Assembly: GCA_916610825.1 (NCBI GenBank)
Contig: OU744447.1
Location: forward strand, 17,569,063-17,633,062
DNA length: 64,000 bases
Origin: Haliclystus octoradiatus
Taxonomy: Eukaryota > Cnidaria > Staurozoa > Stauromedusae > Haliclystidae
Reading direction: 5' to 3'
Shown in pieces: positions 45,799-64,000 of this stretch. The translations under genes and the position numbers were made by a program. Under the pieces are notes generated by a model that saw nothing but the letters and a program-made list of their open reading frames with translations, did no database searches and was not told where the DNA came from. Within the stretch, counting starts at the first letter, position 1. Every line of letters begins with the position of its first letter.

Positions 45799-52077
<6,279 letters not shown>

Positions 52078-53100
52078 TTGACTATAATTATTTACTTGGG
52101 GGAAAAAGTGACTTTGGAAGCCTTTAAAAACAGTTACAAGTTGAGATACACATGTTTATTTTGAATGAAAATTATAGATGTCTGAAGAGATGACCACCAA
52201 GCCTCAATCAGAATTATGCCTCTTTTCGAAGCTACTAACAGATTACTGCATACTTGATGTCTACCAGTCACTACTAATACGTATCTATATAGCGTCTAAC
52301 TATCCAGCCAACTAATAACTATACACAAATCATGAATTCATATAATAATCATAATGATTAGAAATTTGTCTGATGCAGCAATGGAGTATTTTAATTTTCG
52401 TACTTACAATATTTCAATTTTAAAACAAGATCAAACAGATTATGTAACAGCAATAAATGATCGTCATTATATATGAAATCTGGCCATCAACAATTTTCAA
52501 AATTCCGAAGCAGTTACAAGAAGACACGTAAACAATCATATTAGACCACAGTCTCTTTTAATTGAATAATAAAACATAGTTAAGGTATTATTTAAGTAGT
52601 TAGTAATTAAATATATTTAATAACCCTATTCTATTAATAAACTGTACAAAACGATACATGACACTGCCTGATGTTTGCATAAACGGGGTATTGAATAATG
52701 AAAATGGCATAGCAATAATCCAGTCCATGTATCTCCCTCCTTCCATGAAAATTGAAGGCGAATAAGTTTTCAAAACTATATGTGGAATTCTCCAAGGTAA
52801 ATTTTCTTATCACTGCTACACGACATAACTAAAATGATAGAGAAAAATATGCAAATCAAACAAGCGAAATAAAAGTTAAAATAAGGGTAGTAGCAACAGT
52901 TCAAAAGTGAGATTAGGCCAAATGAAAACATTAAAGGTTTCTGATCAGAAAAGTTCAATGAGGCGGGAGGTTTTATTTCTATTTTTTTCTAGAGTGCAGC
53001 AACGTGAAATTTACCATATCTATGGTGGCCCATCGTTCTCATAGCATATTTCAACAAAAAACGATAGAAACAGAATTAAAATATAAAAAATTGTGGATTA
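52078..53100. other. Gene-free stretch upstream of the PARP gene
   Basis: Holds the PARP promoter side. No conserved coding sequence was seen; one copy of the GGCCCATCGTTCTCATAG motif lies at 53027-53044. Confidence 0.5.
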
Positions 53101-53247
53101 AAAATGAAAATACAATAAAATAATGAAAAAAAAAAAAATAATAAAAAAAAAAAAAATAAAAATAAAAAATAAAAGAATATAAAATAAAAAAAATAAAAAA
53201 AAAAAATAAAAAAAAAAAAAATTAAATAAAAAAAAAAAATAAAAAAA

Positions 53248-53318
<71 letters not shown>

Positions 53319-53630
53319 AAAAATAAAATAAAATAAAAAAATAAAATAAAATAAAATAAAAAAAATAAAAAAAACAAAAAAAATAAAAAATATAAAAAAT
53401 AAAAAAATAAAAAATAAAAATAAATAAAATAAAAAAATAAAAAAATAAAATAAAAAAAAATAAAATAAAATAAAATAAAAATAAAATAAAACAAATTAAA
53501 TTAAATTAAAAAAAAAAAATAATAAAAAAAAATAAATAAAAAAAAAATAAATAAAAAAAAAATAAAATAAAATAAAATAAAAAATAAAAAAAAAATAAAA
53601 AAAATAAAATAAAAAAATAAAAAAACAGAC
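53101..53630. repeat. A/T-only low-complexity tract, about 530 bp
   Basis: Consists of A-runs broken by single T (AAAT, AAAAT and longer), with a regular AAAT block at about 53246-53318. Almost no G or C occurs. A 90-residue frame rich in Phe/Tyr through it is an artefact. Confidence 0.95.
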
Positions 53631-53639
53631 ATTGAAAAC

Positions 53640-54480
53640 CGAAACACAACTTCTGTTTTCATTTCAAAATCAAAATCGGTTTTACCACTTCACAGCCCAT
53701 CGTTCTCATAAGACTTCTGTTTTCATTTCAAAATCAAAATCGGTTTTACCACTTCACGGCCCATCGTTCTCATAAGACTTCCGTTTGATTTTGAAACTGA
53801 AACTCGCATGTGTCTTGCAGCCCATTGCTCTCATAGCCTGCGGTCACGCAAGCTGCGAACTGTGTGGCTGCGTCCGTCGAGCTTCGTCTATTACCCTCCG
53901 TGACAATTTGTGACAATATTAAGGATATGCTTCGATCATTTGACAAATACATACGTCTTTCAAGGACAGAATATATTGCCAGCTGTTGGTGAAGTGTGCC
54001 AAAGACAAACCCAGTCGTAGTCAGTAGAATATTTTAATAATATACACTCAATCGCTTTGAATGAATGGTTCACAATACTTTAAAGAATAATATCTACAAC
54101 AGTGCTCCCGATGTAAAATAGTGTCAAGGCAATGTGCATATAGAAGACGTAGTATAGGCATTATGTCACAATTTATATTATTTAAAAACATACTGATAAA
54201 CTATAATAACTATTTGGTATGCCTCGGCTATATGACCGATTGACCACACACCCACGCGTAAGGCCGTCTTGCGTGACTACGTCTACGAAGTATACCGCTG
54301 CTCTTGAGCGGCGTGCATATTATGCCGCACGCTATGAGAACGATGGGCTGCTAGCAACATTCGAAAATGAAAATGAAATGTTACTTAGCAGCCCATCGTT
54401 CTCATAGCCCGCGGTACGTTTGGTCAGCGCAAATAGCTGCTCACGGTACAGTTGCTCACGGTTTTATGCAACGTAGCTAT
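53640..54480. repeat. Repeat cluster with motif GCCCATCGTTCTCATA
   Basis: Two tandem units of about 64 bp (53648-53775) are followed by further copies of the motif at 53818-53836, 54331-54351 (inverted) and 54388-54408. The last two form a hairpin (54331-54408) with arms of about 30 bp. Sequence after the motif (GCCTGCGGT, GCCCGCGGT) is also shared. No coding sequence was recognised. Confidence 0.7.
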
Positions 54481-54481
54481 G

Positions 54482-55218
54482 CAGGGATTACTTTTGATTC
54501 GAAAGTAATTGGTTACAGTTACTTTTTGCGTTACTTTTTATGAATAAGTCCAAACACATCCAACAGAAGCAATGAGACATATATGAAGTATTCAAATAAT
54601 ATTTCTGTATTTTCATCTGTTAATTAATCAAATGCTCTTGTTGACAATATAAATACGAAAACAGATACCCGACGAATATTCACAGCGAAAGATAATCTCA
54701 AGTTACGCGCCATTAGTCCTATTCCAGGCTTGGTTGCTATGACAATTAATTGATCGAACAGACATATAAGACATGAAACCGTGAAGCGCTCGTTGAATCA
54801 CTTGAATATTATAAACTCGGAAAAACAGATTGTCAAACAGAATGTCACTTCCCTGAATGTAATTTCCTTGACATCCAAATTCATAACAGGATTTCCTGCA
54901 GTTGTAGGGAACTTTTTGTCTGTGTTTTTATTGTTCTTGGATGGTAACAATAAGAACAAAAGATTTTGACTAATTGAAACACAAAAGCGATCGAGAAGCT
55001 GCCAATTTTCAGCTATCTTTTGCAAAAAAAGTAACGGAAGAAAGCGAAAATTTTGTGAAAAAGTAGCGAATAATCGTTACTTTACATTCAATCCTAAATG
55101 TAACTAGTTACAAGTAGAAGTTACTTTTACAGAAAAGTAACTAGGGCCAAGTAGAAGTTACTAAAAATTACTATTACCAGTAACGTCGTTACTTCTGTAA
55201 TCGTTACTAACATCCCTG
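54482..55218. mobile_element. hAT-like element or terminal part of the palindrome, 737 bp
   Basis: Starts CAGGGATTACTTTTG and ends ...GTTACTAACATCCCTG, the inverse of CAGGGATGTTAGTAAC. GTTACTTTT-type motifs fill both ends. The flanking 8-mers (TAGCTATG, TCTATAAT) are not a duplication. The right edge is repeated in mirror image at 63939, so at least the inner 62 bp belong to the large inverted repeat. Confidence 0.55.
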
Positions 55219-57965
55219 TCTATAATGCATGTATGTGTTAACTTTGTTATAATTATTGAAGGCTATCATATCCGTTTTTATTATTACGAAGCCTTTTTCA
55301 CTCAAGTGGTTATCATATATGAATACACGCTATCGTATGGATTTTTATATAACATGGAACATATTATTGTTAATCAGCTTATAAATCCACACTTGTACTT
55401 AACCACGAATGAGCCAAGGAAAACAAGGTCACACCTAAAATCATATTTGCTTGAGCATTTGTGTATTATGTCTGTGAAGTTAGACGCATATTCGTCTGGA
55501 CGAATATTCAAATAGACATATATTGGAGCGCGTTAAATAACGCTTCGCACAAATGATGTGAGCACAACAGACTTATTAATGGAAGATTTACGAAGTTAAG
55601 GAACAATATAAACTGCAAAAAGTATATAATAAAGTCGATAAAGGCAATATGAATTATTTTAAAGAAAATAAATTATCAAAACATACAAAATTGCACCAAA
55701 AAATTGAATTATTCATTTGAACGCAGATAAACGCATGACTGATCAAATTAATCACGGATGTTTAGACAAAGATATGGATTAACAGTGTTTCGTATTGGAA
55801 ATCAAACAGACAAATATTCAAATTGTCACGGGTTTGATCTAAAACTTTGGACGAATATTCAAATTAATAGGGTTTCGTATGGAATAAAAAAACAGACGCA
55901 TATTCAAATCATCACGGGTTTGATCTAAACTTTGGACGAATATTCAAATTAATAGGGTTTCGTATGGAATAAAATAACAGACGCATATTCAAATTATCAC
56001 GGGTTTGATCTAAAACTTTGGACGAATATTCAAATTAATAGGGTTTCGTATGGAATAGAAAAACAGACGCATATTCAAATTATCACGGGTTTGATCCAAG
56101 ACTTTGGACGAATATTCAAATTAATAGGGTTTCGTATGGAATAAAAAAACAGACGCATATTCAAATCATCACGGGTTTGATCTAAACTTTGGACGAATAT
56201 TCAAATTAATAGGGTGTCGTATGGAATAAGATAACAGACGCATATTCAAATTATCACGGGTTTGATCTAAAACTTTGGACGAATATTCAAATTAATAGGG
56301 TGTCGTATGGAATAAAATAACAGACGCATATTCAAATTATCACGGGTATGATCTAAACTTTAGACGAATATTCAAATTAACAGTGTTTCGTATGGAATAT
56401 AAATACAGACGCATATTCAAATTATCACGGGTTTGATCTAAAACTTTGGACGAATATTCAAATTAATAGGGTTTCGTATGGAATAAAAAAACAGACGCAT
56501 ATTCAAATCATCACGGGTTTGATCTAAACTTTGGACGAATATTAAAATTATCACGGGTGTGATCTAAACTTTGGACGAATATTCAAATTAATAGGGTGTC
56601 GTATGGAATAAAATAACAGACGCATATTCAAATTACCACGGGTGTGATCTAAACTTTGGACGAATATTCAAATTAATAGGGTTTCGTATGGAATAGAAAA
56701 ACAGACGCATATTCAAATTACCACGTGTGTGATCTAAACTTTGGACGAATATTCAAATTAATAGGGTGTCGTATGGAATAAAATAACAGACGCATATTCA
56801 AATTACCACGGGTGTGATCTAAACTTTGGACGAATATTCAAATTAATAGGGTTTCGTATGGAATAGAAAAACAGACGCATATTCAAATTACCACGTGTGT
56901 GATCTAAACTTTGGACGAATATTCAAATTAATAGGGTGTCGTATGGAATAAAATAACAGACGCATATTCAAATTATCACGGGTTTGATCTAAAACTTTGG
57001 ACGAATATTCAAATTAATAGGGTGTCGTATGGAATAAAATAACAGACGCATATTCAAATTATCACGGGTATGATCTAAACTTTAGACGAATATTCAAATT
57101 AACAGTGTTTCGTATGGAATATAAATACAGACGCATATTCAAATTATCACGGGTTTGATCTAAAACTTTGGACGAATATTCAAATTAATAGGGTTTCGTA
57201 TGGAATAAAAAAACAGACGCATATTCAAATTATCACGGGTGTGATCTAAACTTTGGACGAATATTCAAATTAATAGGGTGTCGTATGGAATAAAATAACA
57301 GACGCATATTCAAATTACCACGGGTGTGATCTAAACTTTGGACGAATATTCAAATTAATAGGGTTTCGTATGGAATAAAAAAACAGACGCATATTCAAAT
57401 CATCACGGGTTTGATCTAAACTTTGGACGAATATTCAAATTATCACGGGTGTGATCTAAACTTTGGACGAATATTCAAATTAATAGGGTTTCGTATGGAA
57501 TAGAAAAACAGACGCATATTCAAATTATCACGGGTGTGATCTAAACTTTGGACGAATATTCAAATTAATAGGGTGTCGTATGGAATAAAATAACAGACGC
57601 ATATTCAAATTACCACGGGTGTGATCTAAACTTTGGACGAATATTCAAATTAATAGGGTTTCGTATGGAATAGAAAAACAGACGCATATTCAAATTACCA
57701 CGTGTGTGATCTAAACTTTGGACGAATATTCAAATTAATAGGGTGTCGTATGGAATAAAATAACAGACGCATATTCAAATTACCACGGGTGTGATCTAAA
57801 CTTTGGACGAATATTCAAATTAATAGGGTTTCGTATGGAATAGAAAAACAGACGCATATTCAAATTACCACGTGTGTGATCTAAACTTTGGACGAATATT
57901 CAAATTAATAGGGTGTCGTATGGAATAAAATAACAGACGCATATTCAAATTATCACGGGTTTGAT
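55157..57965. repeat. Left arm of a large palindrome (inverted repeat)
   Basis: Position p in this arm pairs with 119157 minus p in the right arm. The pairing checks exactly at 55157/64000, 55218/63939 and 55796/63361, so the outer 650 bp contain no net insertion or deletion. The inner part is a satellite array (55808-57965). The arm may extend further left than the window allows testing. Confidence 0.92.
55808..57965 (+). repeat. 86-bp satellite array, about 25 copies (left arm)
   Basis: Each unit of 85-86 bp carries two related halves, ACAGACGCATATTCAAATTA and GGACGAATATTCAAATTAAT. Units differ by TTTCGT or TGTCGT, CACGGGTTTG, CACGGGTGTG or CACGTGTGTG, and AAAAC or AAAC. The variants alternate as higher-order blocks: for example, about 56580-56950 reappears near 57560-57930. 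Confidence 0.93.
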
Positions 57966-58196
57966 GTAGCCATCATCAATAATCCTTAGGTGTGATAGGC
58001 ACGTCCTATAAATTGCTAATGGCAAATCTGGAAACTGCATTAATTTGAGCAGTATTGGGAAGTATGAATGGACAGGTACATTATCACTGGTTGGCATTTG
58101 TAGTAGGAATTATTCAATGTTATACTGGATAGCAACGCAGCTTTAATCCTTTAATTGTATCATTTGATATTGACTATTTCTTCGTAAAGAATAATA

Positions 58197-58992
58197 TCTA
58201 TTTTATTTATCAGCTATCAGTATAGACTGAATCATTTGGATCTAAGGAAATTGTCATTACTGCTTGACTCTTTTTTGGTATATATTAGCTGATGCAAATG
58301 ATGATATAGACAGTCACAGCGTAATCGATCCTGACCATGACGTTATTGCAGTAGCTCAGTCACCGAATTGTGAGTACTATAAAGAATTAATTAAATCTAT
58401 TTTATTTATCAGCTACCAGTATAGACTGAATCATTTGGATCTAGGGAAATTGTCATTACTGCTTTACTCTTTTTTGGTATATATTAGCTGATGCCAATGA
58501 TGATATAGACAGTCACAGCGTAATCGATCCTGACCATGACGTTGTTGCAGTAGCTCAGTCACCGAATTGTGAGTACTATAAAGAATTAATTAAATCTATT
58601 TTATTTATCAGCTACCAGTATAGACTGAATCATTTGGATCTAGGGAAATTGTCATTACTGCTTTACTCTTTTTTGGTATATATTAGCTGATGCCAATGAT
58701 GATATAGACAGTCACAGCGTAATCGATCCTGACCATGACGTTGTTGCAGTAGCTCAGTCACCGAATTGTGAGTACTATAAAGAATTAATTAAATCTATTT
58801 TATTTATCAGCTACCAGTATAGACTGAATCATTTGGATCTAGGGAAATTGTCATTACTGCTTTACTCTTTTTTGGTATATATTAGCTGATGCCAATGATG
58901 ATATAGACAGTCACAGCGTAATCGATCCTGACCATGACGTTGTTGCAGTAGCTCAGTCACCGAATTGTGAGTACTATAAAGTATTCATTAAA
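58197..58992 (+). repeat. Four tandem 199-bp units, each with one 81-nt exon
   Basis: Units start at about 58197, 58396, 58595 and 58794 and are almost identical. Each holds a polypyrimidine tract and acceptor (TATATATTAG), an 81-nt open segment and a donor (AATT|GTGAGT). A fifth, diverged unit is visible just before the exon at 59085. Confidence 0.92.
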
Positions 58993-61531
58993 CCTATATT
59001 ATTAAGCTATCAGCTACCAGTGCAGACTGAATCATTTTGATTAAGGGAAATTGCCATTACTGCTTTACTCTTTCTTTGTTGTAGATGATATCACAGATGT
59101 GGGAGTTACAAATATGAAGTCGTTACCAGATTGTAATATATACAAATTCCATCCAGTAACCCTCTTCCGTTTCTTTAGAAAATAGCGTTAGTATGATCCT
59201 GAAGGAATTCCACTTTCTGTTTTCAGTACCATGGGATGTATCTGCTACAACAGGACCTACAATTGTTTACCACAGCGATATAGAAGGAGAGTGTGATTTG
59301 CTGCCATATGGTAAGTTAACAATACACTCTTGACTCTTCTTGCTTCTGCTGACAAATATTCTAATGATGTTTTCTCTTCGAAAGTTAAACATTTTTGCAT
59401 TGTACTTAGAACTGCAATGCAAATTCATCAGAAGCAAGCCCATGAAGAAAGGTGTGACAATTGACTTCAGCGAAGAAATTAACGGTTAGTCTTTCATTGA
59501 AATTGGAAAGCATTCCTTGATTAATCCACAATGTTCAATATATACTTTATTTAACGAGAATGAAATTCAATTTCATCTTCAAAATGAGTGTTGATGATCC
59601 TCTATGTTTTTCCAGTAAGTTCCACCCCTTCTAAAACGTACTTACGTACAGTAATTATACTATATGTACCCATATGTACCAATCAAGCACTTCCAAATTC
59701 AAGAAAATTTTGGAGATTCAAGGAACCAGACCAGGGAATTTAAAAAGCCAAAATGGAAGCGTTCTCTTACATGTTCTACACCCTTCATTCCCTGATGGTT
59801 CAAATTAGTCCAAATTTACTTTGCTATTTATCCCAGATTTCCAAAAGTACGCAAATGCATGTGATCTGGAGTGTGAAACTGAATCCGACGATGAAGATCA
59901 TTTCTATCCTTCATGTAAAATTAAAGGTAAGATCAAACGTTCCTTATTCAGTTGTAGTGCAGATAATGCAGTTATGCTACACTAATCAGACAGCCCGTCA
60001 ATCAAGGTAAACTAGTTTCAACTCAACATAACAGCAGGACAGATGGTACTTTTTCAAGTTCGTAGAACTTTATCGTATTTATCGAACTTAAAAAAGCATT
60101 AAATTTGAAGACAAACGTATATATCTTTGTGAAAGATTTAAGCGTGTTGCTTTTTAAGTAACGTTTTCGATAGGTAGGTCATCTTGATAGGGAGAAATCC
60201 AGTCAACGTATTTGGGAAGGTAGCCCTCGGGTCTCGGGTGTACGCGATATCCACTCAATAAGCACAATGACTCGATCCTGACACGAATGCCCTCGTGGCA
60301 GTTTAGTTAAATAAACCGTATAAGAAAGTCTGAAATTAACCAATCTGAATTATTTTCAGAAAGTAAAAGATCTGAAACCCTATTCGAGGTTTTGTAACTT
60401 GTTCTTGAAACATCGAGGTTGTAGTGGTTTGATCTGAAAATGTGTCTGATTCGGATTTCATGCATGACGAAGCACTGCTAATTCGAATATATACTTGATC
60501 TAATGGGTTATTTTATTCTTCAATAGATAATCCAATTTATGATGTCGTCCAGGACTATAAAGGTCAATCAATACATAATTATACAGGTAAAAAGATGTCA
60601 ATTGTCCTATTTTCCATTGATAACAATACAACAAGTGAAACTACAAGCCTATCTGATGGTTGATACGATCGAGTAGAGAGTTTTAGTGTCATCTGCTTGA
60701 CAAATATATGAAAATTCTTATCCAAGAAATGCAGTCTCATTTTATATGGGGGCGCTGAGGTTAGGTATGACAAAGAGAATGTTTGATAAGATCTTTTACA
60801 ATAACACCACCCTGTTATTTTGAGATTAAATCTGTAACATGCAGTTGGGTCCAGTTGGTGCCTCATGACGAAAAGCTAATATTTACATGAACAAATTGAA
60901 ACTATAATCTCTGACGACATCATTAATTATTTTCTCCTCAGACATGGCCTTCAAATTAAATGAAGAAGAAAAGGATTCCATCAGTAGAGGAGCATGGTTG
61001 TCTGATAACCATCTATATTTCGCCACACAGCAATTGAAGAGTCAGTTTCCAGAAATTGCTGGGCTTGAATGCATCCACCTTTACCAATCCGAAAGAGGAT
61101 TTTCCGTGGATGGAGACATTACAAAACTATGGGTACAGCCCATGTACAACGGACGTCAGCATTGGGTTACCTTGGTTCGTCTACCAAACTATAAAACTAT
61201 ATATTTAATGGATAGTTTGATACAGTCATATCCATTTGGCATGTTCTTCACTTCGAATTTGACGCCTGTGCTGAAGAGATCTTTGAAAAATATTTATAGG
61301 CACTGGGATCACCCGATCAAAGTGGTAACACTGGATGTTGGTCAACAGCCAAACTGCTTGGATTGCGGCCTCTACGCAATAGCATTTGCTGTGGAAGTCT
61401 GCCACAGCAAAAATTTAAATGAAAAGATGGTTTATGCCAATACCTACATGAGGAAACATTTCTATAATTCAGTAGAAAATGGATTAATGGCAAAATTTCC
61501 GAAGAATGAAAAAAAAAGTATACATATATAA
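58289..61531 (+). CDS. ULP1-like (C48) cysteine protease gene inside the palindrome, at least 10 exons, 5' end unresolved
   Basis: Exons: 58289-58369, 58488-58568, 58687-58767, 58886-58966, 59085-59132, 59227-59310, 59410-59484, 59837-59926, 60527-60586, 60942-61531. Every intron is phase 1. The first four exons each encode the same acidic 27-residue repeat (DANDDIDSHSVIDPDHDVVA core). Later exons are acidic with scattered Cys (DLECETESDDEDH). The last exon encodes a ULP1/SENP-like domain: WLSDNHLYFATQQL, then catalytic H (QHWVTL), D (YLMDSL), Q (DVGQQPN) and C (DCGLYAIAFA); counted from the exon's first Met, H73, D90, Q134/135 and C141. The C-terminal MRKHF...FP is typical of transposon-linked ULP domains in animals. 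Such proteases accompany several DNA transposon superfamilies (KDZ, some MULEs). No transposase was seen. The N-terminal exon and start codon were not found. Confidence 0.75.
60942..61531 (+). CDS. Terminal exon: ULP1-like protease domain
   Basis: The acceptor TTTTCTCCTCAG ends at 60941 and the frame runs to a stop at 61529-61531. The H-D-Q-C arrangement of the C48 peptidase family is complete, so the enzyme may be active on ubiquitin-like proteins or their precursors. Read alone it could be mistaken for a 195-residue protein starting at 60944, but the acceptor and the preceding phase-1 exons argue that it is the last exon of a longer gene. An AT-rich TTATTC/CATATT repeat follows at about 61600-61690. 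Confidence 0.85.
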
Positions 61532-61692
61532 GAATAGAAAAAATAGAATAGTAATTGCAAAATTAGGATTACTTCTACATAAATTAAATAAAAAACAATT
61601 CAAATTCATATTATTCTTATTGTTCATATTATTCTTATTATTCATATTATATTCGTATTAATCATATTATTCTTATTATATTTAATTATTTT

Positions 61693-63349
61693 TATATTCC
61701 ATACAAAACACTATCAATTGGAGTATTCGTCCAAAGTTTAGATCAAACCCGTGATAATTTGAATATGCGTCTGCTTTTATAATCCATACGAAACACTGTT
61801 AATTTGAATATTCGTCCAAAGTTTAGATCACACCCGTGATAATTTGAATATGCGTCTGTTTTTTTATTCCATACGAAACCCTATTAATTTGAATATTCGT
61901 CCAAAGTTTTAGATCAAACCCGTGATAATTTGAATATGCGTCTGTATTTATATTCCATACGAAACACTGTTAATTTGAATATTCGTCTAAAGTTTAGATC
62001 ATACCCGTGATAATTTGAATATGCGTCTGTTATTTTATTCCATACGACACCCTATTAATTTGAATATTCGTCCAAAGTTTTAGATCAAACCCGTGATAAT
62101 TTGAATATGCGTCTGTTATTTTATTCCATACGACACCCTATTAATTTGAATATTCGTCCAAAGTTTAGATCACACACGTGGTAATTTGAATATGCGTCTG
62201 TTTTTCTATTCCATACGAAACCCTATTAATTTGAATATTCGTCCAAAGTTTAGATCACACCCGTGGTAATTTGAATATGCGTCTGTTATTTTATTCCATA
62301 CGACACCCTATTAATTTGAATATTCGTCCAAAGTTTAGATCACACACGTGGTAATTTGAATATGCGTCTGTTTTTCTATTCCATACGAAACCCTATTAAT
62401 TTGAATATTCGTCCAAAGTTTAGATCACACCCGTGGTAATTTGAATATGCGTCTGTTATTTTATTCCATACGACACCCTATTAATTTGAATATTCGTCCA
62501 AAGTTTAGATCACACCCGTGATAATTTGAATATGCGTCTGTTTTTCTATTCCATACGAAACCCTATTAATTTGAATATTCGTCCAAAGTTTAGATCACAC
62601 CCGTGATAATTTTAATATTCGTCCAAAGTTTAGATCAAACCCGTGATGATTTGAATATGCGTCTGTTTTTTTATTCCATACGAAACCCTATTAATTTGAA
62701 TATTCGTCCAAAGTTTTAGATCAAACCCGTGATAATTTGAATATGCGTCTGTATTTATATTCCATACGAAACACTGTTAATTTGAATATTCGTCTAAAGT
62801 TTAGATCATACCCGTGATAATTTGAATATGCGTCTGTTATTTTATTCCATACGACACCCTATTAATTTGAATATTCGTCCAAAGTTTTAGATCAAACCCG
62901 TGATAATTTGAATATGCGTCTGTTATCTTATGCCATACGACACCCTATTAATTTGAATATTCGTCCAAAGTTTAGATCAAACCCGTGATGATTTGAATAT
63001 GCGTCTGTTTTTTTATTCCATACGAAACCCTATTAATTTGAATATTCGTCCAAAGTCTTGGATCAAACCCGTGATAATTTGAATATGCGTCTGTTTTTCT
63101 ATTCCATACGAAACCCTATTAATTTGAATATTCGTCCAAAGTTTTAGATCAAACCCGTGATAATTTGAATATGCGTCTGTTATTTTATTCCATACGAAAC
63201 CCTATTAATTTGAATATTCGTCCAAAGTTTAGATCAAACCCGTGATGATTTGAATATGCGTCTGTTTTTTTATTCCATACGAAACCCTATTAATTTGAAT
63301 ATTCGTCCAAAGTTTTAGATCAAACCCGTGACAATTTGAATATTTGTCT
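61693..63349 (-). repeat. 86-bp satellite array, about 19 copies (right arm)
   Basis: The same unit as the left array in inverted orientation, with the same variant forms. Array length is 1.66 kb against 2.16 kb on the left. Confidence 0.93.
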
Positions 63350-64000
63350 GTTTGATTTCCAATACGAAACACTGTTAATCCATATCTTTGTCTAAACATC
63401 CGTGATTAATTTGATCAGTCATGCGTTTATCTGCGTTCAAATGAATAATTCAATTTTTTGGTGCAATTTTGTATGTTTTGATAATTTATTTTCTTTAAAA
63501 TAATTCATATTGCCTTTATCGACTTTATTATATACTTTTTGCAGTTTATATTGTTCCTTAACTTCGTAAATCTTCCATTAATAAGTCTGTTGTGCTCACA
63601 TCATTTGTGCGAAGCGTTATTTAACGCGCTCCAATATATGTCTATTTGAATATTCGTCCAGACGAATATGCGTCTAACTTCACAGACATAATACACAAAT
63701 GCTCAAGCAAATATGATTTTAGGTGTGACCTTGTTTTCCTTGGCTCATTCGTGGTTAAGTACAAGTGTGGATTTATAAGCTGATTAACAATAATATGTTC
63801 CATGTTATATAAAAATCCATACGATAGCGTGTATTCATATATGATAACCACTTGAGTGAAAAAGGCTTCGTAATAATAAAAACGGATATGATAGCCTTCA
63901 ATAATTATAACAAAGTTAACACATACATGCATTATAGACAGGGATGTTAGTAACGATTACAGAAGTAACGACGTTACTGGTAATAGTAATTTTTAGTAAC
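61693..64000. repeat. Right arm of the large palindrome (continues past the window)
   Basis: Inverted copy of 55157-57965. The outer part matches base for base in length; the array part is about 500 bp shorter than in the left arm. The same 96-residue open frame seen at 55225-55515 reappears here inverted at 63642-63932, identical in translation. Confidence 0.92.

Follow-up and report, generated by a model that had tools for sequence, protein, structure and literature searches.

The DNA analysed here is a stretch of 64,000 nt from Haliclystus octoradiatus (contig OU744447.1 of assembly GCA_916610825.1, locus C2:17569063-17633062 of the 262-Mb assembly; hereafter the window), whose right-hand part is occupied by a large palindrome, and we compared the cores and arms found in it with the whole genome. 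A sequence-only reading, made without database searches, had described a single giant fold-back element from position 54482 onward, with tandem repeats inside its inverted arms and a 3.7 kb core encoding a ULP1-like protease. The long arms are there, 55157-56993 and 62164-64000 being 99% complementary over 1,837 nt; to the right of position 64000 the genome copy consists of 5,000 N. Within the palindrome, ends common to other copies with 9-bp target-site duplications (TSDs) delimit an element that we call B, of 8,222 bp and unstranded, which starts at 55468 rather than at 54482 and ends at 63689, and which, as a deletion relative to a copy on C10 shows, derives by internal loss from a fold-back DNA transposon with satellite arms.

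B begins with the non-satellite outer part of the left terminal inverted repeat (TIR; 55468-55777, + strand), placed by end comparison and motif scan, whose outermost ~43 bp carry two copies of the motif GACGMATATTC. This is followed by the left satellite arm with an 85-bp unit (55778-57965, +; tandem-repeat and motif scans) and, beyond the core, by an inverted right satellite arm with an 85/86-bp unit (61689-63379, -; palindrome, repeat and motif scans) and the outer part of the right TIR (63380-63689, -; end comparison); tandem repeats within the arms had thus been seen correctly, as had the core of ~3.7 kb, which lies at 57966-61688. Its first part is the inner end of the left arm (57966-58195, +), found by genome search to be 99-100% conserved in five other B copies, and then come 4.4 copies of a 199-bp tandem repeat (58196-59078, +; repeat scan, open frames, C10 comparison), each unit of which can encode an acidic stretch and which, to go by its sequence, could be a repeated acidic exon. 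Conserved exon-like segments of the upstream part of a ULP gene occupy 59177-60663 (+), recognised from open frames and from translated matches that keep the same order in relatives at C7:3.58 Mb and C2:36.09 Mb (approximately 59177-59329, 59384-59485, 59807-59980 and 60509-60600, positions converted from C10), and are followed by an intact ULP1/C48 cysteine protease exon (60944-61531, +; PF02902, yeast Ulp1 alignment).

The genome search for further copies, edges and TSDs that had been recommended for this locus showed that B is a dispersed DNA-transposon family of the cut-and-paste type with fold-back ends. The ends are ATGTCTGTGAAG, the fixed terminus begins ATGTCTGTGAAGTTAGACGCATATTCG, and a perfect 9-bp TSD was present in seven of the nine copies seen at both ends (L012, L013, L014, L016, L018, L019 and C10), the two copies without one being that of the window, where the flanks are inverted, and L020, where the right tip is truncated. 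Because the same ends recur genome-wide and differing 9-bp target duplications flank the other copies, chance is excluded as the origin of the palindrome. A 318-bp B end used as query was 97-100% identical to every one of the 40 places scored (the best 40 of 152 candidates); by count these represent 29 loci, 11 being facing pairs 2.1-8.2 kb across, and recent activity of the family, with many short copies, is suggested. B shows what defines the fold-back class, namely long, repeat-bearing inverted arms of variable length and dispersed insertion with TSDs.

The arm satellite consists of arrays of the element's own tip motif, GACGMATATTC, oppositely oriented in the two arms. This motif occurs twice within the outermost 43 bp of each tip and then in mostly alternating 45/40-bp steps through the satellite; by eye, the 85-bp unit is a degenerate dimer of ~43 bp with the motif in each half. 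The left arm of the window copy contains 51 forward and 0 reverse motifs, the right arm 0 and 38, and the core none, while elsewhere in the window there are none in 1-53020 and one in a second element, A, which is described below. Counts in the C10 arms are 116/109, and six other B copies have forward motifs in their left part and reverse motifs in their right; the motif was picked after inspecting the tip and the repeat, and these counts describe the arrangement and do not test it. The arms might have turned out to be ordinary satellite with no fixed core, an outcome the sequence-only reading had itself allowed for; as far as seen, all 11 satellite clusters listed (from the best 39 of 1170 candidates) carry at least one B end, and a scan of the sequenced flanks of C10 and the six other B copies found no GACGMATATTC. 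Over the outer 1000 bp, the two arms of a copy differ by a mean of 30.75 differences (n = 8 copies; 1, 48, 62, 27, 2, 11, 35 and 60) against 45.8 between copies (112 pairs), and only 11 of 20,000 random pairings were as low as the within-copy value; the likeness of arms within a copy is real on average, with strong homogenisation in three of the eight copies only (window, L014 and L016). As the tandem arm repeats of the Drosophila element Galileo contain binding sites for the THAP domain of its transposase (PMC3688188), GACGMATATTC may be considered a candidate transposase-binding site of B.

The C10 copy, with 20,723 bp between its TIRs and the TSD CTATGTAGG, has arms of ~5.6-5.8 kb and a core of ~9.4 kb in which the ULP exons are preceded on their 5' side by transposase-like exons of the same strand. 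By eye, these form in order, on one strand, a HLDATG...VVIDW exon, a CACH exon and a NAAVES exon, an order that we liken to the D-D-CxxH-E of transposases of the Mutator-like element (MULE) type. Positions 7882-13931 of C10 in reverse, ~6 kb, are missing from the window copy, where the junction lies in the interval 58195-58337; the segment lost holds open exons on the ULP strand. From this comparison the window copy is an internal-deletion derivative and, as predicted from what it retains, non-autonomous; that status had been proposed for it earlier, together with a search for copies carrying a transposase, and the exons upstream of ULP in C10 overturn the accompanying idea of an element type devoid of transposase. 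The N-terminal exon A is present in five B copies (complete in C6, C8 and C10, partial in C1:0.72 and C11) and the 3' transposase-like exon in the C10 and C5 copies. In the C6 copy, which retains the first exons alone, exon B reads in a single frame into the beginning of exon C; the C5 copy has kept the last transposase-like exon and ULP, interrupted by 6.3 kb.

The window ULP exon (195 aa) matches PF02902 with 38.2 bits against a cut-off of 20.7 (E-value 1.8e-9) and aligns to yeast Ulp1 (1euv_A, E-value 0.00036), with the catalytic residues His73, Asp90, Gln135 and Cys141 falling within the Ulp1 motifs HW, MDS, QQPN and DCG; above the PF02902 cut-off and with the His-Asp-Gln-Cys set, it has the marks of an Ulp1/C48 peptidase, as had been read from the letters alone. 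That the gene is split into exons also stands, the protease exon being preceded by conserved exon-like segments collinear with those of relatives. Relatives at C7 and C1 align to the window exon without gaps, giving nonsynonymous (dN) and synonymous (dS) divergences of 0.245 and 1.896 against C7 (NG86; dN/dS ~0.13, a rough ratio with dS near saturation) and of 0.274 and 1.549 against C1 (NG86; 0.275 and 2.124 by YN00), and the identity to C7 by codon position (first 0.76, second 0.83, third 0.50) shows a clear third-position excess of change. By these substitution patterns the protease evolves under constraint. Among the matches listed, which comprise at least 85 MULE and at least 111 ULP genome matches, ULP lies downstream of MULE and on its strand in 12 of the pairs found within 10 kb of one another, and one pair is arranged otherwise; in seven of the 12 the two are 6.7-7.0 kb apart, and these seven resemble copies of a single family. 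One element of this arrangement was read and has MULE exons followed by a ULP exon. Based on the constraint on the protease and the recurrent MULE-then-ULP gene order in this genome, ULP probably belongs to the machinery of transposition.

The protease could instead be accidental cargo, captured in the manner of a Pack-type element by a non-autonomous element that an unrelated transposase mobilises. Such an origin would suit the presence of ULP in just three of the B copies read (window, C10 and C5), and ULP does adjoin another transposase type in this genome (ISL2EU-like by eye, with a 917-aa open reading frame (ORF)). We nevertheless regard it as improbable, given that ULP lies 3' of transposase-like exons at collinear positions in C10 and C5, that its relatives are constrained, and that the MULE-then-ULP order recurs; the constraint on the exon likewise makes the protease look like a part of the element and not like chance cargo, the sequence-only reading having considered a protease cargo.

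Several further loci were recorded alongside these ULP genes. L033 (C11:233000-237000) has by eye an ISL2EU/Harbinger-like transposase on one strand and, on the other, a long ORF that combines PHD-like with ULP-like stretches; its 917-aa frame gives a ULP match repeated at 11 places with identical score among the matches listed. L041 (C4:1385300-1393299) is a repeated MULE element with a MULE exon, a SWIM-like segment (by eye) and a ULP exon downstream. The C7 relative (L034/L038) has upstream of ULP, in a similar place, a 203-bp repeat that is likewise acidic and is unlike the 199-bp repeat of the window in sequence, and at C2:30052387-30063395 the B core and ULP have several repeated, diverged matches (~75-85%) lying on one strand.

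Taking these observations together, we consider it likely that B is a cut-and-paste fold-back transposon whose exons encode a DDE-type transposase, whose motif arrays bind that transposase and whose ULP protease aids transposition, with the window copy dependent on supply in trans. The transposase would bind GACGMATATTC, perhaps through its N-terminal region, encoded by exon A, and the arrays would recruit many transposase molecules, such that the two distant ends could be found and paired, as proposed for Galileo. The exons would form a DDE-type transposase with the order D...D...CxxH...E of MULE transposases, which would cut at the tips and join the element into staggered 9-bp target cuts, while the ULP protease may strip SUMO or a similar modifier from the transposase or from repair factors during transposition. 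The window copy, having lost its transposase by internal deletion, would require one in trans.

A number of results weigh against this account. The C10 copy is damaged, its transposase-like exons carrying a frameshift and its ULP frame containing stops, and no intact autonomous copy was found among the B copies read; moreover, the relatives at C1:9.28 and C7:3.58 Mb keep exon A and ULP but contain, in the parts read, no D-D exon, a state that this account leaves unexplained. Pfam scans of the transposase-like exon pieces (E-values up to 5 and up to 10) gave no model above its cut-off, MULE included, and no PDB chain matched exon C at E-values up to 10. In pairwise comparison with a same-genome MULE the scores were not significant, 303 and 202 of 1000 shuffles doing as well; mismatched control pairs reached 93 of 1000, better than the true pairs, and 530 of 1000. 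The near-saturated dS, too, belongs here.

The Pfam scans returned just unrelated weak matches (E-values 0.05-0.23), none of the 85 genome matches listed for the MULE domain PF10551 falls on the C10 exons, and 15 pattern matches in viral contigs yielded no relatives. KDZ transposons have an 8-bp TSD and a transposase domain represented in Pfam; the exon scans found no Pfam match to the KDZ domain, and the TSD of B is 9 bp. Nor was there a Pfam match in these scans to the THAP domain or to the P-type transposase of Galileo and the P superfamily; in Galileo we know of no ULP. B does have the long TIRs and the 8-10-bp, mostly 9-bp, TSD of Mutator/MULE elements; it is not filed as a MULE because its exons gave no match to the MULE domain in these scans. 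B works like a fold-back element of the MULE/Galileo type, with membership of Mutator not established.

The sequence outside B belongs to a second family. A search with 54482-56482 split at ~55475, the left and right halves matching separate sets of places, and of the places matching the left part alone eight were fetched (L021-L028). These define element A, a second fold-back DNA transposon family whose copies begin TATGGTGGCCCAT and which had a 6-bp TSD in all four copies examined at both ends (L021, L022, L023 and L027), a length that we take to be IS3EU-like. Palindromic A copies span 3.7-7.2 kb and have the tip TATGG. In the window, the left arm of A lies at 53021-55467 (+), interrupted by B and identified from the palindromic copies L021-L023 and L027, and the opposite arm at 63690-64000 (-), an inverted copy of 55157-55467 that runs on past the window. 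The single 9.5-kb element as first drawn is accordingly ruled out, two families with different ends and TSD lengths (A with 6 bp, B with 9 bp) having been fused in it; of the matching outer 650 bp of the arms reported earlier, the match exists, with about half belonging to the B end and about half (55157-55467 and 63690-64000) to an arm of A.

B is symmetrically placed between two inverted A arms, with the centre of A gone. Immediately to its left are the 9 bp TTGTGTATT (55459-55467, +), and its right flank begins AATACACAA (63690-63698), which is TTGTGTATT inverted and not a direct repeat; the flanks mirror each other and match the A arm, with 310 of 310 compared bases identical. We give an even chance to an origin in which B inserted into one A arm, conversion copied B with its duplication to the opposite arm, and recombination between the two B copies deleted the A centre, or else in which a template switch occurred within the B palindrome. 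Both the conversion and the template-switch models predict the mirrored junction, and the A arm continues past the junction point in four other A copies, with a centre of ~690 bp in L021; against this, intermediates were not observed, and the A end on the right is hidden by masking. The perfect inverted flanks, the missing A centre and the N beyond 64000 would also fit an assembly artefact, with the palindrome arising from chimeric or unresolved reads, which we think very improbable: the B ends recur at seven other loci with differing 9-bp TSDs, arm motif counts differ within copies, and A copies normally have near-identical arms (L021, L022 and L023 with 0, 0 and 1 difference, respectively). 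The B family itself is not in doubt, and the question of an artefact is limited to the outer A flank.

Elsewhere in the window, reverse transcriptase-like frames with a GIY-YIG-like end at 47413-49250 (-) resemble by eye a Penelope-like element, 46151-47397 is a TAT microsatellite of 1.2 kb, and other frames presumably resemble an animal scaffold gene, DLG5-like.

Each part of the B design has counterparts in known systems. Tm1 of root-knot nematodes, a Mutator/Foldback family with transposase-encoding groups and groups resembling miniature inverted-repeat transposable elements, shares with B composite TIRs of variable length with tandem repeats and 9-bp TSDs, but its repeats are 14-bp, its transposase has a recognisable MULE domain, and the words 'protease' and 'SUMO' are absent from the Tm1 text (PMC3169594). 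Muta1 and other Aedes MULEs are similar in their 8-9-bp TSDs, long TIRs with subterminal tandem repeats and many deleted derivatives, and differ in having 12-bp repeats and a recognised MULE transposase, 'protease' again being absent from the text (PMC5225508). Galileo, of the P superfamily, has very long, internally repetitive TIRs like those of B (PMC3688188), whereas the THAP/P-type transposase is its own. The arms of Tetris of Drosophila virilis are built like those of B from an outermost flanking domain, tandem repeats and an inner domain, the repeat having a 37-bp stretch in common with the flanking domain; unlike those of B, its repeats are 220-bp and also form long satellite arrays (PMC4079207). 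As for the protease, the order of MULE then ULP in this genome fits the statement that Ulp1 occurs in Mutator-type transposons of hydra, lancelet and plants (PMC2836005), and in these, as in plant KAONASHI and grapevine MULEs (PMC2528002), the Ulp1 domain is encoded with the transposase as in B; satellite fold-back arms go unmentioned in the relevant passages of both sources, and in plant KI-MULEs, unlike the B-type order, ULP is in reverse orientation (PMC2528002). No description of satellite fold-back arms and ULP in one element was found in the open-licence literature as far as it was searched.

B is thus a family joining known designs (fold-back arms, MULE-like 9-bp duplications and a transposon ULP protease), and the family itself is new. 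We speculate further, as a rather doubtful possibility, that it may represent an undescribed DDE transposase lineage outside the Pfam profiles, pairing ULP with an end-binding array (>200 motif copies in the long copy, ~four helical turns apart); if true, a single mechanism for moving a 20-kb palindrome would have SUMO removal and the recognition of ends at many sites as its two halves. As the C10 copy shows, it is possible to find the coding element that underlies such arms, where for Tetris no autonomous copy was found (PMC4079207). B joins three things usually described apart, fold-back arms, a satellite that repeats the transposon's end motif and a SUMO-type protease under selection, and with its motif array the idea of fold-back arms as landing arrays for transposase can readily be tested.

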